NCBI GenBank assembly: GCA_013299115.1
Contig: JAAFKA010000042.1
Coordinates: 1 to 34,511 of the forward strand
Reading direction: 5' to 3'
Length of the DNA: 34,511 nt
Origin: Cytophagales bacterium
Lineage (GTDB): Bacteria > Bacteroidota > Bacteroidia > Cytophagales > Thermoflexibacteraceae
Part shown: positions 19,679 to 27,002 of the stretch, piece by piece
How positions within the stretch are numbered: the first letter of the stretch is position 1
How the letters are laid out: the number at the start of each line of letters is the position of its first letter
Notes under the pieces: generated by a model
Seen by the model: the letters and a program-made list of their open reading frames with translations, nothing else
Told to the model about the DNA's origin: nothing
Database searches by the model: none
Translations under genes and position numbers: made by a program

Positions 19679-22600
19679 TTACATCACCGCCTTCAATCCA
19701 TAGACAATGGCAGCCTCCGAAGCCAGCCCGAAGGCAATACCAAAACCGAAACCATAATTGATGAGTTTGGTAAAATAGTCGCCTGCAAAACTGTAAAACA
19801 ATTTTTCTATTTCGGCAGAGTCCATACTTTTGATTTCTTCGACTACTATTTTTTTCAGGTCTATGGAGTTTATCAATGGGGATAAATTGTTTTCGAGGGC
19901 TGCTAATACGGCTTCTATCACTTGTTTTGCCAAAAAGTCCTTAGACTCGGCAGAAATATGGTCGGGCAATTTGTCTAAAAACAAGCTGGCAATGCGTTGA
20001 ATTTCTGCGTGCAAAAACTCCTTCGTTTCGGGTGCAGCCAAGACCTGATTCAGCACTTGCAACAAGTCGGTTTGCAGCACTTCGGTATTGACTAATTGGC
20101 TTACCTCCGCTTGTTTGACTTGCTCGAAAAAACGACTGATAAACTCCCTTTTTTGCGTTTCGAAAACCGAAGAACCCAGCAACTGTTTCACTATATTTTG
20201 GGCAGATTGGCGGTAAGCCTCCTCGTCTATGCGTGCAAAAACGTCTTTCACTTTGGTATTTCTCAGTTTTTCTTCCAAAATTTCGGTTACAAAACCTGTC
20301 AATCTTTTGCCTATTTCGCCTTGTTTTTCTCTGCCTTGTTGCTGCAAATGTTTGGTGATGATGTTGAGTTCGTGGCTCAAAATCCGTTGCAAATCACGCA
20401 TATTTTCTACACCGCCGACCCGCAAAAACACCGAAATTGGCACTTTAAACAACTCTTTTAGGATAGAATAAGACAAATTTTGCACAGAAAGCAACATTTC
20501 TTCTCTTGCCAAAAAAGTTTCTAACAAGGTTTTCAAATAATTTTTGTCTAACTGCACATTCAAATCTTTCAACCTGCTCATGCCTATAGTTTGGGCTTGC
20601 ACCGCCACCAAATCTTTTAGGCTTTGCCTTTCCTCTGCAAAAAAATTGGGTATGCCTTCCTCCGCCAAATCCAAAACTGTTTCTTTGATAGTAGATTGGT
20701 AAAAAAACGTGGCAGGATTTTTTTTCATTGCCATTTTATATACGTCATCTGCAATCTGTTTTTTGTTTGTCCGCAGCCACTCCGTACCCAACGTAAGCAC
20801 ATTTTCCATAATGAAATCCAAATTGTCGTTTAGCATCAACATCAGCCTGCCATCGAGCAACTCATTCAGCCTTCTTTCGGGGGCTAATTCTTCGGCAAGA
20901 CGAACATCTACAAAGTTAAACAGCAAATTTCGAATTTCGGTATCTATCAACTTTTCGTGAATAAAACGGCTGACATTCAGCATAATAGCCGTTTTTTGCG
21001 TGTCCTCCAAATACTTGTCTAAACCCAAACGGCGGTATTTCAAAAACTGCGGTTCGAGTTGGGTCAAAACATCACTCTGTTTTTCGGCATTGCGGAGGTT
21101 ATCAAAAAAGCTACCAATCTTGTCGGCTACCCATTCTTGCAATAACTGTTGGATATTTTTTCGCAAATTTTCAGGAATGACCTCATAAACCGACTTTTCT
21201 CTTTGCGTAAATCGTTGCAAACCAATGCTAACTTGTTCGGCAAAATTGGTAGCAAAAGTTGGGTTTGCGGTAAATTGAGCCACATTTTCCTCTATGGGTT
21301 GCGTGTCTATTTCTGCCAAATTAAAATATTGTTTGTTGTGCAGAAACTGTTGCAAAGTTTCTTTTAGCTTGTTTTCCAATCCTACTTTTACCACACTTGC
21401 ACCTGCATTTTGCCCATTGTCCACGCCCAACACACCCCGACAAGCAGCTTCGGCAAGGGCTTGGCTGATTTTAGGGTTATTTTCCACTATCAAATTTCGC
21501 AATAGTTGGTAATTGTCCTTTGCCACCAATCCATAAATAGCCTGATAACTTCTCTCTTTGTTACTTTCAAAACTTGCCCGCAAAACCTCCTCATTTAGCA
21601 AATGTCGAGATACAAAATTGCCCATATTGTTAGCAAAACGTGCTTGGTTTTTTGCCAAAATACCGGGCGTAAACGGCACTTGTACGCCACCCACATACAC
21701 AGGCTTGTGTGGACGAAACACCATTTTGATAGCCTGCCAATTTGTCCCCCAACCTGTAATGCCATAAGCAGCAGATGCCATGGCAAGGTAGGCGTAAGTA
21801 TTTTCGGGTGTGGGCAAATAATACAACGCACCACCTGCCACACCGCCCAGCCAAGCACCCAAAATAGTAATAGGTTTCAACTCCTGCCCCATAAACTGCT
21901 CGACCACATTTTTGAGAGCAGAGTCGTCCATCTTGCGGAGTCGGGTGGCTATGATGTCCTCTATTTTTTTGACTGTTATTTTATCTAAGTTGTTGATTAG
22001 CAACAGTTTCAATTCACTGCTCATCACTGCACTTTTGCCTATGGCGTAGTGCTGCAAAGTGCGGACAGGAGTTTGCAATCCTTTGTCTATCTCTTGTTTG
22101 ATTAATTCATTGCCATTGGTTGCAATTTTTTTATACAAATAATTTTTCCAATTTGCAGTCAATACATCATGTAAGGTTTTACCTGTTAATTGCTGGTTTA
22201 TGGTGGAGTAAAGGTAGTTGGCTATCAAGGGATTGTTTTGTTGTGCCAACGTCATGAGTTGTCCCGACAAGGTTTGTGCAAAATTGTGAAACCTCCTTTC
22301 GTCTATAATTTCGCCTAACGACTGGTTGCCCGCCTTCAAAATCTGTTTTTTCAGTTGCTCGGCTATGAGTTGGCTGAAAGCAGGGTCGTATAACAGCTTG
22401 TTTTTCAGCCTTGTATTTACCAATTTGGACAAACCATTTTGTAAAAAATCCTCAATTTCAGACTTCGGCACTAACTCTCCAATTCGTTTTTCGAAAAAAA
22501 CTGCAATTTCTTCGGTCTTTATTTGCTTTAAGCCATGTGCCAAACCTGCCATCAAAATATCGTGCAGGTTCATGCCTTTGGCGTTGTCTTTTATTCGTTT

Positions 22601-23830
22601 GACTATATCGCCAATCGTATTGCTTTGCAAAAACTCAATAACTTTTTCGGTAAATTTCTCGGCTGTTTCGTTAGGGTTGCGTTGGTAAGTTTGCAACATA
22701 TCCACTACTTTTTTCATCACATCTGCCGATTGGCTCACACTCGTTACAAACAAGCCCAACACCATTGTTTTTAAGCCCGAAGGCACATTGCCCTTGAAAG
22801 TATTGTCTATCAAAGTTTCCAATTTTAGCTGTCTTTCTTGCACCCAATCGATGAGCGAAGCCAAAATAGTGGGCATTTTTTCACGCAAAAAGTTTTTGGT
22901 ACTTGCCGACAAATCATCTGAAAGCAGGTCAAAAATAGTAGATTTTTCTTTTTCTAAGGTGCGAATGATAAAATCTGCAAAATTGTGCAACAAGACTTTG
23001 CCGTCTTCCGAAGACGCAATGTCATTCATACGTTTCAGCAATTCGTCTGCCAAAGCATTGGTGTAATAAATTCCCAAAACTTCGTGTATTTTCTTTTGCG
23101 ACAACTCCTTAGCCAAAGACTGCATCAGGTCGTCTGCCCGCAAGAGGTGAATCACATCGCGAATAAGGTCGTCTATTTGCTTGTCAAATTGCTGTTTGAG
23201 CAAAGTGTGCAAATCGGAGGAAATTTGGGCTGTATTTTCGCTAACTTTCTCCCAAAAATCAGGTGCAACTAATTGATTAAAAGGTACTTGTTTAAAATCT
23301 TGATAAAAATTAAGCAAGGTTTGTTTCAACAGGTTTTCGTCTTGCACAGAGGCAACCAGCAACTGGCTAAGGCTTTGCGTAAGCTGCGTGAGTTGGGCTG
23401 GCGACACAATTTGCTGCACAGCTATTTGCTTGCCTGTAAAGTCGAGCAAAGGCGGAATGGTTTGAATCAGGCTTTGTTCGGCTTGATTGCGAACATAATC
23501 CGTAGTGAGCCTGATGTAAGGAATATCGCCAATTTGAAAACTTGGCGACAGTTTTTCGAACAAGTGTTTACCAAAAAAATCCTCTATGGTCTGGCGGAGA
23601 GCAGCCTCAAAAACCTGTTCGTTTGCCTGAATTTCTCTCCCCAATGTATGGTGATTGACTATTTCACGTTCTACTAATTGGCTTATTTTTTCTATAAAAA
23701 CATCTCTTGTATCTATGATGACCCCGCCTAAACCAAATTTCTTTTCGAAAAGCATCTTGATAGCCAAGTCGTTGGTTATGTAACCTACGGCTGCACCACT
23801 TACTACATTGGCAATTAAACGAGAAATCAT
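19679..23830 (-). CDS. Giant DUF445-family membrane protein with duplicated architecture
   Basis: A 1383-residue protein of the DUF445 (YheB/YjiN) family, about three times the usual 400 or so. The N-terminus has the family's opening helix and motif (VSGAAVGYITNDLAIKMLFE, about residues 10-29). The motif recurs in the middle (about 660-740): a hydrophobic hairpin LGAWLGGVAGGALYYLP followed by GITGWGTNWQAIKMVFRPHK and VPFTPGILAKNQARFANNMG. Each half then runs through long amphipathic helical repeats, and the second ends with a final membrane segment (YGFGFGIAFGLASEAAIVYG). Pre-membrane segments of both halves look alike (KKIEDIIATRLRKMDD and KKIVVEEIKSMDSAE). The simplest reading is an internal duplication or fusion of two DUF445 units. 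Function is unknown. It is probably the first gene of a unit with the FemAB-like gene. Confidence 0.85.
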   Translation of the reverse strand: MISRLIANVVSGAAVGYITNDLAIKMLFEKKFGLGGVIIDTRDVFIEKISQLVEREIVNHHTLGREIQANEQVFEAALRQTIEDFFGKHLFEKLSPSFQIGDIPYIRLTTDYVRNQAEQSLIQTIPPLLDFTGKQIAVQQIVSPAQLTQLTQSLSQLLVASVQDENLLKQTLLNFYQDFKQVPFNQLVAPDFWEKVSENTAQISSDLHTLLKQQFDKQIDDLIRDVIHLLRADDLMQSLAKELSQKKIHEVLGIYYTNALADELLKRMNDIASSEDGKVLLHNFADFIIRTLEKEKSTIFDLLSDDLSASTKNFLREKMPTILASLIDWVQERQLKLETLIDNTFKGNVPSGLKTMVLGLFVTSVSQSADVMKKVVDMLQTYQRNPNETAEKFTEKVIEFLQSNTIGDIVKRIKDNAKGMNLHDILMAGLAHGLKQIKTEEIAVFFEKRIGELVPKSEIEDFLQNGLSKLVNTRLKNKLLYDPAFSQLIAEQLKKQILKAGNQSLGEIIDERRFHNFAQTLSGQLMTLAQQNNPLIANYLYSTINQQLTGKTLHDVLTANWKNYLYKKIATNGNELIKQEIDKGLQTPVRTLQHYAIGKSAVMSSELKLLLINNLDKITVKKIEDIIATRLRKMDDSALKNVVEQFMGQELKPITILGAWLGGVAGGALYYLPTPENTYAYLAMASAAYGITGWGTNWQAIKMVFRPHKPVYVGGVQVPFTPGILAKNQARFANNMGNFVSRHLLNEEVLRASFESNKERSYQAIYGLVAKDNYQLLRNLIVENNPKISQALAEAACRGVLGVDNGQNAGASVVKVGLENKLKETLQQFLHNKQYFNLAEIDTQPIEENVAQFTANPTFATNFAEQVSIGLQRFTQREKSVYEVIPENLRKNIQQLLQEWVADKIGSFFDNLRNAEKQSDVLTQLEPQFLKYRRLGLDKYLEDTQKTAIMLNVSRFIHEKLIDTEIRNLLFNFVDVRLAEELAPERRLNELLDGRLMLMLNDNLDFIMENVLTLGTEWLRTNKKQIADDVYKMAMKKNPATFFYQSTIKETVLDLAEEGIPNFFAEERQSLKDLVAVQAQTIGMSRLKDLNVQLDKNYLKTLLETFLAREEMLLSVQNLSYSILKELFKVPISVFLRVGGVENMRDLQRILSHELNIITKHLQQQGREKQGEIGKRLTGFVTEILEEKLRNTKVKDVFARIDEEAYRQSAQNIVKQLLGSSVFETQKREFISRFFEQVKQAEVSQLVNTEVLQTDLLQVLNQVLAAPETKEFLHAEIQRIASLFLDKLPDHISAESKDFLAKQVIEAVLAALENNLSPLINSIDLKKIVVEEIKSMDSAEIEKLFYSFAGDYFTKLINYGFGFGIAFGLASEAAIVYGLKAVM

Positions 23831-23868: not shown

Positions 23869-23937
23869 GCAATTTTACGTTGGCAATGGCGATTTTACGT
23901 TGGCAATGGTCGAAGACCTTGACAATCGTAAAATTGC
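23869..23937. repeat. Short direct and inverted repeats
   Basis: ATTTTACGTTGGCAATGG occurs twice in succession (about 23872 and 23892). The outer GCAATTTTACG (23869-23879) is inverted at 23927-23937. This small structure opens the gene-free stretch upstream of the DUF445 gene. Confidence 0.7.
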
Positions 23938-23961
23938 ACTAAGCAATGGCAAAAAAACTTA

Positions 23962-24008
23962 CAACCTCGAAGAGGTTGAACAACAATAGCCCTACGTGCA
24001 ACGTAGGG
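23962..24008 (-). repeat. Inverted partial copy of the 66-bp repeat
   Basis: These 47 bases are the exact reverse complement of the hairpin pair used in the array to the right (CCCTACGTTGCACGTAGGG, spacer, TTCAACCTCTTCGAGGTTG). They are followed by a related hairpin, CAACCCCGAAGGGGTTG, at about 24031-24047. Confidence 0.9.
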
Positions 24009-24073
24009 GAATAGGTGCAAGCGTATTTTGCAACCCCGAAGGGGTTGAACTTTCTTAGAATAGTACGTCATAG

Positions 24074-24489
24074 TTCAACCTCTTCGAGGTTGTAGAGTAC
24101 CTTCTTATTTTTACCTACGTTGCACGTAGGGCTATTGTTGTTCAACCTTTTCGAGGTTGTAGCGTACTTTCTTATTTTCCCTACGTTGCACGTAGGGCTA
24201 TTGTTGTTCAACCTCTTCGAGGTTGTAGCGTACTTTCTTATTTTCCCTACGTTGCACATAGGGCTATTGTTGTTCAACCTCTTCGAGGTTGTAGAGTACT
24301 TTCTTATTTTCCCTACGTTGCACGTAGGGCTATTGTTGTTCAACCTCTTCGAGGTTGTAGAGTACCTTCTTATTTTCCCTACGTTGCACGTAGGGCTATT
24401 GTTGTTCAACCTCTTCGAGGTTGTGGAGTACTTTATTATTTTCCCTACGTTGCACGTAGGGCTATTGTTGTTCAACCTCTTCGAGGTTG
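24074..24489 (+). repeat. Seven-copy tandem array of a 66-bp double-hairpin repeat
   Basis: TTCAACCTCTTCGAGGTT begins at 24074, 24141, 24207, 24273, 24339, 24405 and 24471. The period is 66 bases (67 for the first). Each unit holds two perfect or near-perfect hairpins, AACCTCTTCGAGGTT and CCCTACGTTGCACGTAGGG, separated by CTATTGTTG and by a TAGAGTACTTTCTTATTTT-like spacer. Copies differ by only a few substitutions. As 66 is a multiple of three, both strands show open frames with a 22-residue repeat, but these have no plausible protein character. Spacers are not unique, so this is not CRISPR. With 23831-24073 it fills the whole gene-free stretch between the DUF445 start and the STAND stop. Confidence 0.95.
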
Positions 24490-24507
24490 GGTTGGTTTTA
24501 CTTTTGT

Positions 24508-26895
24508 TTAAGTTTTCAAAAAATCTGCCAATTCCTTCCCTAATTTGTCCAACAATTCCTTTCTTTTTGCATAGTCTAAGAGATTGGTAATTTTGATTCT
24601 TTTGCTCTGTCCTTGTGCAAAATTGCTATGCACTTCGTCGAAATGCAGCATACAAAACAAATTCAAATCCTCGTCATTCAGTTTTTTGTCTAACAACTCA
24701 TAAAGTTCTTTCAACTGGTTGCTGTTTACAGGATTTTGTTCTTTGTTCTCCGCTTTGGGCGTATGCTCTTTTCCTTTCAACTCCATTTCTGCAAAACTTT
24801 TGAGTTGGTCGTAAAAATCTTCGTCTGTCTTGCCCATAATAAACTTGTTTTGCAGTTTGATTAAGGCAGGTTTATCACCTACCAACTCTTTCATCAGACT
24901 GAAATAATCTGGTATTGCCAGTTGATTAACCAAAGCAAGGGCTTTTTCGTAGTTGTTCATCTCTTTTTCCTTTTTTTGTGCTGATAAAATAGCTTTTTTG
25001 AGGTTAGGCAAATATTTATCATTTGGGGCAATTTTCAATGCTTTTTCCACCATTTCTTTTGCCTTTTCCAAATTCCCTTCTTGTTTGTAGGTAATTGCCA
25101 ATTCATTCAAAGTTTTTACATCTTTGTCATTTATTTTCAATGCTTTTTCTAAAATTTCTTTTGCCTTTTCCAAATTCCCTTCTTGTTTGTAGGTAATTGC
25201 CAATTCATTCAAAACTTTTACATTATTGGGTTCTATTTCCAGTGCTTTTTCTAAAATTTCTTTTGCCTTTGCCAAATTCCCTTCTTGTTTGTAGGTAATT
25301 GCCAATTCATTCAAAACTTTTACATTGTTGGGTTCTATTTTCAATGCTTTTTCTAAAACTTCTTTTGCCTTTGCCAAATTCCCTTCTTGTTTGTAGAGAA
25401 TTGCCAATTCATTCAAAACTTTTACATTATTGGGTTCTATTTTCAATGCTTTTTCCACCACTTCCTTTGCCTTTGCCAAATTCCCTTCTTGTTTGTAGAG
25501 CATAGCCAATTCATTGAACGAATGTATATTGCCTAATGCACAGGCTTTTTCTAAAATTTCTTTTGCCTTTGCCAAATTCCCTTCTTGTTTGTAGAGTATA
25601 GCCAATTCATTGAAAGCAGGAATATGTTTGTGTTTTTCAACAAGCTCTGTAAAAATTTCTTTTGCCTTTGCCAAATTCCCTTGCCACTTATAAGTTACAC
25701 CTATTTCGTTCAAAACACCAGCTTTATTAATTATTTGGTCGTATTGTAAAGCATTGTTCAAAATGTCGTGTACCTCGTCATATTTCTTGTCTTTTCTCAT
25801 TTCTTTTACCAAACGATAAAAAGCACCATAATCTCCCTGTTCTTGGGCTTGCTTTACTTTGTTATACTTCGGTTTTTCGGTCTTAAAAAATGCTATTTTT
25901 TCCAATTCGGCAGCTTCTTTGGTGCTGGTCATAAAGGTAAAGCACACCTCTCTCAAAAAAGGATTGATTTCATAGGTTGTGGGCTTATAGTCCAAAAATA
26001 GTTTTTTCCTTAGCGAAAAAGCATCTTTTTCTATCTGTTTTTTGTCTTTCAAAAGAGTATGTTGGCTAAGGCTGGCTACCAATTCCTCCGCTGTCATGGG
26101 GTTTCGCAGCGTAAAAGCATAGAGTAGCACCTTTTCGGTCTTGTTTAGTCGGCTCAAAAGTAGGTTTATCTTGTTCCAGAGTAGTTTTAGTATAGCTTCG
26201 GGTTTGTCTATTGCCTCCTCCACATATTCATAGTCCCATTCGTTTTGCATAGCCAAACTCACCAGCCACACGTGGTCATTGAGTTTGTTACACAGTTTTT
26301 CAAATACTTCGTAGGTTACGCTGTTTTGTCTATACGCTTGGTTGAGTGCTGTATAAAGTTCTTTGCGGTTGATGTCTTTTATTTCTAAACGCAAAGAGGA
26401 GTTTATTTTTACCGCAAAACGACTTTCCAAAATAATTCTGACATTTTTGCTATAAGCTAAGGCATCGAGGTTGTCTTTTATCAGTTTGAGTTTAATCTCG
26501 TGGAGGTGTTCTTTGTCTGTATGCCACGCCAGAGCCTCCTCAAAGTTTTCTATGACCAAAAGCAAAGGTTTATCCAAATCTATTGCCGAGTCGTCTAAAA
26601 ACTGTTGAAAAGTTAGTTCGGGGTTTTCAGGGTTCTGAAATCTTATGGTTTTGATTTGGTAGCCCGTCAAAGTGTCCACAAATTGGCGTACCAGCGTAGT
26701 TTTGCCTATCATTTGCACGCCATAGACCACACAAATCCGTTGGGCGTCATTTTTCATAAAATCAGCCAAGGTTTGGAGTTCGGCAGTCCTCCCCACAAAC
26801 AAAGGTTTGAAGTCGGGCAGGTCTGTTTCCTTTTCAGGTTTGTATTGTTCTCGTAGTTCTTCTAAGGTTTTTCCTCTTTTCTCTTGTTTTGCCAT
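24508..26895 (-). CDS. STAND-type NTPase with near-identical TPRs and adaptor-like C-terminus
   Basis: A 795-residue signalling NTPase starting at the ATG at 26895 (MAKQEKRGKT), with a promoter-like box just before it; the longer TTG-initiated frame is rejected. Residues 33-36 are FVGR. Walker A is GVQMIGKT (59-66), the Walker B position is LLLVIEN (111-117, Glu instead of the first Asp), and RIILESR (153-159) supplies the sensor Arg. A winged-helix-like region follows (about 235-340). Seven 34-residue TPRs (about 395-630) carry the almost invariant block ELAITYKQEGNLAKAKE. Two helical modules end the protein: 645-705 (NNYEKALALVNQLAIPDYFS...) and 725-795 (LKELYELLDKKLNDEDLNLF...). The last resembles effector-associated domains of bacterial conflict systems. 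A role in sensing an invader or stress through TPRs, oligomerising with ATP and recruiting an effector is inferred; no effector domain is present in the protein. Confidence 0.8.
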   Translation of the reverse strand: MAKQEKRGKTLEELREQYKPEKETDLPDFKPLFVGRTAELQTLADFMKNDAQRICVVYGVQMIGKTTLVRQFVDTLTGYQIKTIRFQNPENPELTFQQFLDDSAIDLDKPLLLVIENFEEALAWHTDKEHLHEIKLKLIKDNLDALAYSKNVRIILESRFAVKINSSLRLEIKDINRKELYTALNQAYRQNSVTYEVFEKLCNKLNDHVWLVSLAMQNEWDYEYVEEAIDKPEAILKLLWNKINLLLSRLNKTEKVLLYAFTLRNPMTAEELVASLSQHTLLKDKKQIEKDAFSLRKKLFLDYKPTTYEINPFLREVCFTFMTSTKEAAELEKIAFFKTEKPKYNKVKQAQEQGDYGAFYRLVKEMRKDKKYDEVHDILNNALQYDQIINKAGVLNEIGVTYKWQGNLAKAKEIFTELVEKHKHIPAFNELAILYKQEGNLAKAKEILEKACALGNIHSFNELAMLYKQEGNLAKAKEVVEKALKIEPNNVKVLNELAILYKQEGNLAKAKEVLEKALKIEPNNVKVLNELAITYKQEGNLAKAKEILEKALEIEPNNVKVLNELAITYKQEGNLEKAKEILEKALKINDKDVKTLNELAITYKQEGNLEKAKEMVEKALKIAPNDKYLPNLKKAILSAQKKEKEMNNYEKALALVNQLAIPDYFSLMKELVGDKPALIKLQNKFIMGKTDEDFYDQLKSFAEMELKGKEHTPKAENKEQNPVNSNQLKELYELLDKKLNDEDLNLFCMLHFDEVHSNFAQGQSKRIKITNLLDYAKRKELLDKLGKELADFLKT

Positions 26896-26934
26896 ATTCC
26901 TGTTGGCTTTGTAGCATTTGGGTAGTGAAACCAA

Positions 26935-26966
26935 CAAACATAGTGATAAAAAATAAGGCTTGCAAG
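26935..26966 (-). promoter_or_regulatory. Probable promoter of the STAND gene
   Basis: On the minus strand TATGTTTG (26935-26942) matches TAnnTTTG, with CTTG (26963-26966) 20 bases upstream. It lies 39 bases before the ATG at 26895, which supports that start. Confidence 0.5.
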
Positions 26967-26980
26967 TTTTAATTAGAAAA

Positions 26981-27002
26981 GGTATTTGATAACTCAAATA
27001 CC
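26981..27002. repeat. Small perfect hairpin at the end of the Rpn remnant
   Basis: GGTATTTGA (26981-26989), TAAC, TCAAATACC (26994-27002). It coincides with the point at which homology to the Rpn family stops. Confidence 0.6.

Follow-up and report, generated by a model that had tools for sequence, protein, structure and literature searches.

The window analysed here, 34,511 nucleotides of a Cytophagales bacterium (assembly GCA_013299115.1, contig JAAFKA010000042.1, positions 1 to 34,511 of the forward strand), carries a tandem array of paired hairpins between a DUF445 gene and a STAND-like gene. This array is probably a locally amplified DNA repeat akin to repetitive extragenic palindromes (REPs) and REPINs, with two hairpins per unit, that is processed as single-stranded DNA by a TnpA transposase of subclass 1.2. 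Copies of the same module surround such a transposase gene elsewhere in the genome, and modules built on the same plan accompany the genes of its relatives in other genomes.

Dispersed modules and an associated transposase

The module is 47 bp long and consists of a hairpin H2, an 11-nt spacer, and a hairpin H1. In the window array, H2 (CCCTACGTTGCACGTAGGG) has an 8-bp stem and a TGC triloop, H1 (CAACCTCTTCGAGGTTG) has a 7-bp stem and a TTC triloop, and the joint from H2 to H1 is CTATTGTTGTT. Tandem Repeats Finder (TRF) reports 6.3 units of 66 bp with 96% matches. An earlier note, made from the letters of the window alone, counted seven copies with two hairpins each, which hairpin mapping bears out for H1 (seven in sense orientation, 24076-24489) and corrects for H2 (six, 24113-24461). 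The exact inverted copy it described is there, 23962-24008 being the reverse complement of 24179-24225, identical over 47 bp. A third inverted hairpin, absent from that note, is an H1 at 24031-24047 (CAACCCCGAAGGGGTTG), and its presence makes 23960-24161 a separate 202-bp inverted element. The order along the whole is thus inverted H1, inverted H2, inverted H1, a 28-bp centre, a sense H1, and then six sense H2-H1 modules.

The module belongs to a dispersed family, as the earlier note had supposed. In the genome of the window (5.5 Mb, 74 contigs), positions 23900-24500 gave 133 BLAST matches, and a 28-base pattern over the spacer and H1 gave 66 + 76 = 142 matches, against none for the reversed control. 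The covariance model R1 gave 148 matches at E ≤ 1e-3 among the 150 candidates scored, which makes 148 a lower bound. R1 was built from 26 modules found in a sample of the class in other genomes, the window's genome contributing none; the detector that collected the training modules required pairing and a TTKCA loop, the alignment (A3) omits two of the 28 training modules, whose H1 loops have 4 nt, and the E-values rest on a shortened calibration. On the window, R1 recovered all seven full modules (E 1.1e-12 to 1.7e-8) and one half-module (3e-4), with no further match up to E = 1.

Many modules of this genome are arranged as inverted pairs. The 202-bp block 23960-24161 recurs at no fewer than 19 other sites (at least 188 bp, 77-84% identity, each on both strands) among the 20 of 96 candidates that were scored. 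Other tandem arrays have their own linkers (70 bp × 4.7, 69 bp × 4.3, and 69 bp × 5.3), and there is also a 133-bp inverted-pair array in four copies; such array-specific linkers and periods suggest separate local amplifications. Two near-identical 133-bp inverted-pair arrays (C1:323106-323616 and C59:4078-4590) follow the same sequence, and by eye look like a coding end and its array duplicated together.

Modules are overwhelmingly intergenic. Among 37 sites chosen from loci in hand, 36 lie outside predicted open reading frames (ORFs), the ORF context being approximate because ORFs were picked in a simple way. Neighbouring genes are codirectional at 21 sites, divergent at 7, and convergent at 4, with 5 unplaced. 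Copies thus lie between genes of all three arrangements, and nothing found lends support to a strong barrier separating the DUF445 gene from the STAND gene, a possibility raised in the earlier note. The single site overlapping an ORF is a two-module array in a 213-aa frame (C20:52915-53027). This overlap is one of two observations in favour of a coding minisatellite, in which the 66-bp period would leave a frame open on both strands; the other is that two ORFs do cross the window array (24068-24475, minus strand, 135 aa; 24120-24590, plus strand, 156 aa), as the earlier note had remarked while seeing no sign of coding. That array periods elsewhere (69, 70, and 133 bp) are not all multiples of three, that nearly all sites avoid ORFs, and that paired bases covary with Watson-Crick complementarity (see following) makes a coding function scarcely credible and upholds the note's view of the frames.

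A search of the genome with PF01797 found three Y1 genes, the best of which (Y1_Tnp, C35:23112-23453) lies inside the densest repeat cluster. This gene, on a different contig from the window array, codes for a Y1/HUH transposase of 148 aa (L045:4601-5047 in the extracted locus L045). Within about 0.8 kb of it are 16 modules, seven upstream and nine downstream, mostly of alternating orientation. Tandem repeats of ~31 bp containing CACGTG occur between the gene and the modules (L045 3600-3830, 4345-4480, and 5050-5190), in opposite orientation on the two sides of the gene. The other two Y1 genes, one of them class-2-like with the motif YIHQNP (L047), have neither H1 nor H2 in their stretches of 6.5 kb (L046) and 5 kb (L047).

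The transposase has the motifs EDHIHI, GWQTG, and YIKNQETHH, which are those of TnpA_Y1 subclass 1.2 (the HUH motif as DH[IV]H, W then Q, and Y---Q--HH). Its residues H54, H56, Y114, Q118, H121, and H122 are invariant across 19 aligned sequences, and the alignment of its relatives matches the TnpA of IS608 over the HUH motif, the catalytic tyrosine, and the glutamine. Its score against the NCBIfam IS200 model is 54 bits, slightly below the cut-off of 55. In the accessible text of a 2018 survey, subclass 1.2 is described by a length of 148 aa, DH[IV]H, WQ, YIKNQKEHH, and Y---Q--HH, and by a low copy number in Cyanobacteria and Bacteroidetes, with the entry for REPs given as "no" (PMC6006769). 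The protein resembles that description in size, in all three motifs (YIKNQ..HH in the last), and in copy number, the genome having one close TnpA and one at 31% identity; its named relatives also point to a Bacteroidota origin. The genes found here differ from it in having paired-hairpin modules on their flanks, with such modules dispersed in the genome, which contradicts the no-REP entry in that text of the survey, not the protein assignment.

Modules and TnpA tend to co-occur in genomes. Of 395 genomes of the class, 194 have a match to TnpA and 60 have modules at E ≤ 1e-4. The 60 divide into 56 of the 194 TnpA-positive genomes and 4 of the 201 others. When only the close clade is considered (a cut chosen by the analyst at a best E of 1e-36 or better, which retains 27 genomes), modules occur in 23 of the 27, against 37 of the 368 others. 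When the 16 training genomes are removed, the close clade still has modules in 7 of 11 genomes versus 37 of 368 (p 4e-5), and genomes with any TnpA match in 40 of 178 versus 4 of 201 (p about 2e-10), these p-values being generous because species are not independent. The scan scored up to 15 candidates per genome under strict filters, so that counts per genome are lower bounds; presence lists were compiled by hand, and the four module-positive genomes outside the 194 were counted as TnpA-negative. Among the 13 genomes of the window's own family, a close TnpA and modules are both confined to the genome of the window.

This distribution bears on the idea that modules are host-adapted DNA sites for nucleoid, gyrase, or replication-fork binding, with a purely historical association to the transposase. 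Some bacterial interspersed mosaic elements (BIMEs) of E. coli have been proposed as sites of this kind, and the intergenic spread of the modules, like the conservation of their loops and spacer, is in keeping with it. However, modules are absent from 12 of 12 family relatives, so they are not a generally needed host site, and their presence tracks TnpA, which leaves this explanation very improbable.

The association also holds at the level of the locus. In the flanks of the closest TnpA relatives, read directly, there are modules on the same plan with different stems. A larger set of 79 named transposase loci came from a collection of 84,980 species, which gave at least 535 matches, the best 80 being retained. 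There, a strict detector found 83 modules, against one in Markov-shuffled sequence, and placed a module less than 1 kb from the gene in 42 of the 79 loci. R1 at E < 1e-3 found modules in 68 of the 79 (loci outside the best 150 matches were taken by hand from the match list, the 92 matches not on it being weaker than E 0.018). The best 150 R1 matches lie in 55 loci, and 134 of them are within 1 kb of the gene, a density 29-fold higher than beyond. Less than 200 nt downstream of the gene there are 30 sense and 12 antisense matches, and less than 200 nt upstream 32 antisense and 7 sense (50 and 32 when all upstream matches are taken), a bias towards inverted orientation on the two sides of the gene among the modules closest to it. 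Positions are also constrained: 22 of 39 downstream sense modules start 50-62 nt beyond the matched end of the gene, and a sense module starts 45-85 nt beyond it in 26 of the 79 loci. Perfect 6-bp hairpins of any sequence number 11.5 per kb in the 150 nt nearest the gene and 0.7-1.0 per kb at distances over 1 kb. According to record names, the module-positive loci include some from Verrucomicrobia, Lentisphaerae, Phycisphaerae, Cloacimonadota, Neomarinimicrobiota, Chlorobiota, and Deltaproteobacteria, the records of these groups all being metagenome-assembled genomes.

A second TnpA clade (~40% identity) has another hairpin pair next to the gene in several loci, as judged by eye. A hairpin with a TAC loop lies 7-21 nt from the gene in L103, L107, L257, L258, L263, and L264, and a further one, mostly with a TAAC loop, lies ~50 nt beyond in L257, L258, L263, and L264; with 11 of 12 loci placed, the pair was not seen at L102, L108, L260, and L261. 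The rise in the density of 6-bp stems is modest in this clade (1.8 per kb up to 150 nt from the gene, 0.5-0.9 past 300 nt). These sequences support a view in which enzyme and repeat would be paired clade by clade. The second-clade locus L257 is in a genome of the same genus as the window's and has a repeat similar to GTGCCGTAGGCACGAAATATTTATAG, which is also dispersed in the genome of the window; no TnpA close to that of L257 turned up in the latter genome, the query having been the TnpA of the other clade.

The GTGCCGTAGGCACGAAATATTTATAG hairpin repeat is itself framed, in five loci of the window's genome (on C10, C2, C1, C12, and C39), by a second inverted repeat, R (TTCTTAGCTTAATAGCATTGGACTWWAGTCC). 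R has 102 copies in this genome (e.g., C2:31578 and C2:31817), adjoins the 202-bp inverted module pairs that were read, and flanks each of the 19 dispersed copies inspected on one side or both. One might regard the modules as passive cargo of a miniature inverted-repeat transposable element (MITE) of a DDE transposase, with the R frame (CTTAGCTTAATAGCATTGGACTWWAGTCC) as its terminal repeats. The number of R copies and their position beside the modules speak for a MITE, and the framing of an unrelated inner repeat by R in the five loci is the reason for retaining this rival. However, there is no R at the window array nor at the array of contig C34, the transposase cluster has R solely beyond its right edge, and of the two relatives whose flanks were inspected one (L083) lacks R and the other (L087) has only a loosely similar hairpin, GGGCTAAAGCCC. 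No transposase linked to R was found, no search for one having been made. A MITE origin is decidedly unlikely. By eye, no target duplication was seen at the window array.

Pairing, loops and the level at which modules act

Modules fold stably as DNA. The single 47-nt module has z = -6.6 relative to 200 dinucleotide shuffles, and the 551-nt region has z = -19.9 relative to 100, none of the shuffles being as stable in either case. Both sides change in 12 of the 14 pairs of alignment A3, for which the covariation score is 0.735, against 0.216 when shuffled. Two tests in the window's genome involve no selection for pairing. With H2 anchored on the spacer, 808 of 840 cells are Watson-Crick (mean 758 and maximum 769 in 1000 shuffles), and 54 of 55 zero-mismatch pattern matches of H1 are complementary, where the pattern permitted 16 combinations. 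The sole non-complementary H1 match is in the window, at 24132-24159. Wobble pairs are rare, with 14 of the 840 cells in the H2 test and 40 of about 1746 paired cells in the training-based tally, which fits DNA better than RNA.

Loops are conserved as well. Among the 84 of 150 matches that are exactly 47 nt long, 49 have TTC and 17 have TGC as the H2 triloop, 61 have TTC as the H1 triloop, and the H2 loop is closed (positions 8 and 12) by T-A in 64 and by C-G in 9. The consensus of the family is an H2 with an 8-bp stem and mostly a TTC or TGC triloop, a spacer YTATT....TT, and an H1 with a 7-bp stem and mostly a TTC triloop. The sequences at the feet are a conserved ..TT 5′ of H1 and YTATT 3′ of H2.

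The earlier note had left a choice between a transcribed chain of stem-loops and a DNA site, either for recombination or for protein binding. The DNA level is favoured, because of the association with a single-strand-DNA transposase and the rarity of wobble pairs, and a purely RNA-level role is not. A structured-RNA element, with transcribed hairpins selected as terminators, stabilisers of mRNA 3′ ends, or small RNAs, would account for the stable stem-loops (as folded in DNA), for the sense module that in relatives often follows the transposase gene by ~50 nt, as a terminator might, and for the location of the array ~19 bp beyond the stop codon of the minus-strand STAND-like gene. Yet convergent genes are not in excess around modules (the ground on which the terminator reading is rejected), tandem and inverted arrays reach 16 modules, G-U cells are scarce, and Rfam returned only MIR2680 (E 0.009) and SNORD50 (E 0.5), both far under the gathering score. 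An RNA function is unlikely.

A putative mechanism, related systems and opposing evidence

The TnpA of IS608 acts as a dimer. It works on hairpins of single-stranded DNA, and guide tetranucleotides 5′ of the palindromes choose the cleavage sites, according to the accessible text of PMC8266576. A subclass-1.2 dimer may likewise bind both same-loop hairpins of a module in single-stranded DNA, for example on the lagging strand. As H2 and H1 are unlike but mostly share one loop type and are linked by a conserved joining strand, in the simplest arrangement one protomer would hold H2 and the other H1, both from the same module. The tyrosine would then cut near the hairpin feet, close to the conserved YTATT or TT, and the enzyme would move or recombine modules. 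Inverted module pairs may be the mobile unit, as in REPINs, and tandem arrays could arise in place after insertion, through TnpA strand transfer or replication slippage. Effects on neighbouring genes would be secondary. We infer that modules may be cleaved and mobile, and that they may have a role for the host. The same text reports that loop positions affect cleavage in the REPtron of Marinomonas (PMC8266576), and by analogy the reading of loops by subclass-1.2 TnpA is plausible.

As far as the accessible texts go (PMC8266576, PMC6006769), this system is similar to REPtrons, in which REP, BIME, or REPIN repeats go with a TnpA_REP (RAYT), as modelled in E. coli and Stenotrophomonas: intergenic palindromes are numerous and form inverted pairs and mosaics, and one Y1/HUH gene is flanked by its own repeats. 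It differs in having two different hairpins per unit, in lacking a GT[AG]G consensus at the foot, and in its transposase, which is class 1 (Y---Q--HH) and not the class 2 TnpA (Y---NP) of REPtrons (PMC6006769). With IS200/IS605 elements (IS608, ISDra2) it shares a homologous TnpA with HUH and one tyrosine, and hairpins adjoining the gene. Unlike these elements, whose left and right ends are dissimilar and which move as whole copies, the nearest modules are inverted copies of one design, and a single close gene copy stands against many repeats. TIRYTs (TIRtrons) also have a Y1 gene between inverted, sometimes double-palindromic repeats that can form a genome-wide family (accessible text of PMC3733652), but the TIRYTs examined in the available part of the survey fall in class 2 subclasses (PMC6006769). 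The module consensus lacks the GGGGWSAS of most TIRYT repeats, no other search for it having been made. Finally, the Porphyromonas gingivalis MITE with an internal minisatellite is also a tandem repeat within a small inverted-repeat element of a Bacteroidete; the likeness is one of description, and the accessible text mentions no tie to a Y1 transposase (PMC4596501). The open-access literature yielded the 2018 TnpA_Y1 survey and papers on REPs, but no earlier description of two-hairpin modules was found.

Several observations weigh against processing by TnpA. At E < 1e-3, 11 of the 79 transposase loci have no module. At E ≤ 1e-4, modules are missing from 138 of the 194 TnpA-positive genomes, a number to be expected if R1 fits only one enzyme clade, and 4 of the 27 genomes with a close TnpA are among the 138. 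Six of the 12 family relatives have a distant TnpA match (≤42% identity) and no module. The co-divergence of TnpA and modules is weak (Mantel r 0.146, as high in 132 of 5000 permutations, on 52 of the 55 loci, three having been left out for a stop in the matched stretch). The covariation counts of A3 and the related training-based tallies are partly built in, since the training detector demanded pairing and the TTKCA loop. Canonical REP traits are missing, as there is no GT[AG]G consensus at the foot and TnpA has Y---Q instead of Y---NP; a canonical GTAG REP is ruled out by the foot sequence of the hairpins. With R beside all inspected dispersed copies, another element may have carried some of them. 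In a same-genus genome, other genes lie upstream of the DUF445 gene and there is no clean empty site, so that the insertion is not directly readable. At the place of the array, this genome has short frames that by eye resemble a toxin-antitoxin pair of the RelBE type (L278).

On a wider scale, it seems somewhat more probable than the contrary that TnpA of subclass 1.2 are widespread, unrecognised repeat-processing single-strand recombinases with clade-specific two-hairpin substrates. Their loops (TTC, and TAC or TAAC in the second clade) would be read by the protein, one dimer would capture two unlike hairpins, and the enzymes would drive both the dispersed families and the tandem arrays, in Bacteroidota as well as in several other phyla. 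As the accessible text of the survey gives subclass 1.2 no DNA partner, the 47-nt module is a candidate that can be directly assayed for cleavage. It also suggests that REP-like repeats may have a second origin, possibly an independent one, with a class 1 (IS200-like) instead of a class 2 enzyme, which bears on how insertion sequences give rise to REP systems. As an annotation model, R1 could serve to label such repeats in the many genomes where they may at present go unmarked.

The array and its surroundings in the window

Coordinates of the hairpin modules, the elements they form, and the flanking genes in the window.
Feature	Position	Strand	Basis
Inverted 47-bp module (H2-spacer-H1 on the minus strand)	23962..24008	-	R1 54.2 bits, E 1.1e-12
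Additional inverted H1 hairpin, CAACCCCGAAGGGGTTG	24031..24047	-	R1 half-match 24031-24052, E 3e-4
28-bp centre separating the inverted arms	24048..24075	.	hairpin mapping
202-bp inverted element, <H1 <H2 <H1 / H1> H2> H1>	23960..24161	.	own-genome matches
Tandem array, 66 bp, 6.3 units (H1, 19-20-nt linker, H2, 11-nt spacer)	24073..24489	+	TRF, hairpin mapping
First sense H1, right half of the inner inverted pair	24076..24092	+	hairpin mapping
Module 1, one changed base in each hairpin	24113..24159	+	R1 E 1.7e-8
Module 2	24179..24225	+	R1 E 1.1e-12
Module 3, one changed base in H2	24245..24291	+	R1 E 3.8e-11
Module 4	24311..24357	+	R1 E 1.1e-12
Module 5	24377..24423	+	R1 E 1.1e-12
Module 6	24443..24489	+	R1 E 1.1e-12
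Flanking DUF445 protein gene, start 131 bp left of the array (context only)	19679..23830	-	
Flanking ATPase-TPR-EAD7 (STAND-like) gene, stop ~19 bp right of the array (context only)	24508..26997	-	

Two further repeats lie close to the array. On its left, at 23893-23933, is a palindrome TTTTACG...CGTAAAA with a GAA triloop. The same-genus genome and others of the family carry near-identical copies of it by the dozen. To the right of the array, TRF identifies a 102-bp tandem repeat of 6.5 copies (25031-25682) within the TPR region of the STAND-like gene.
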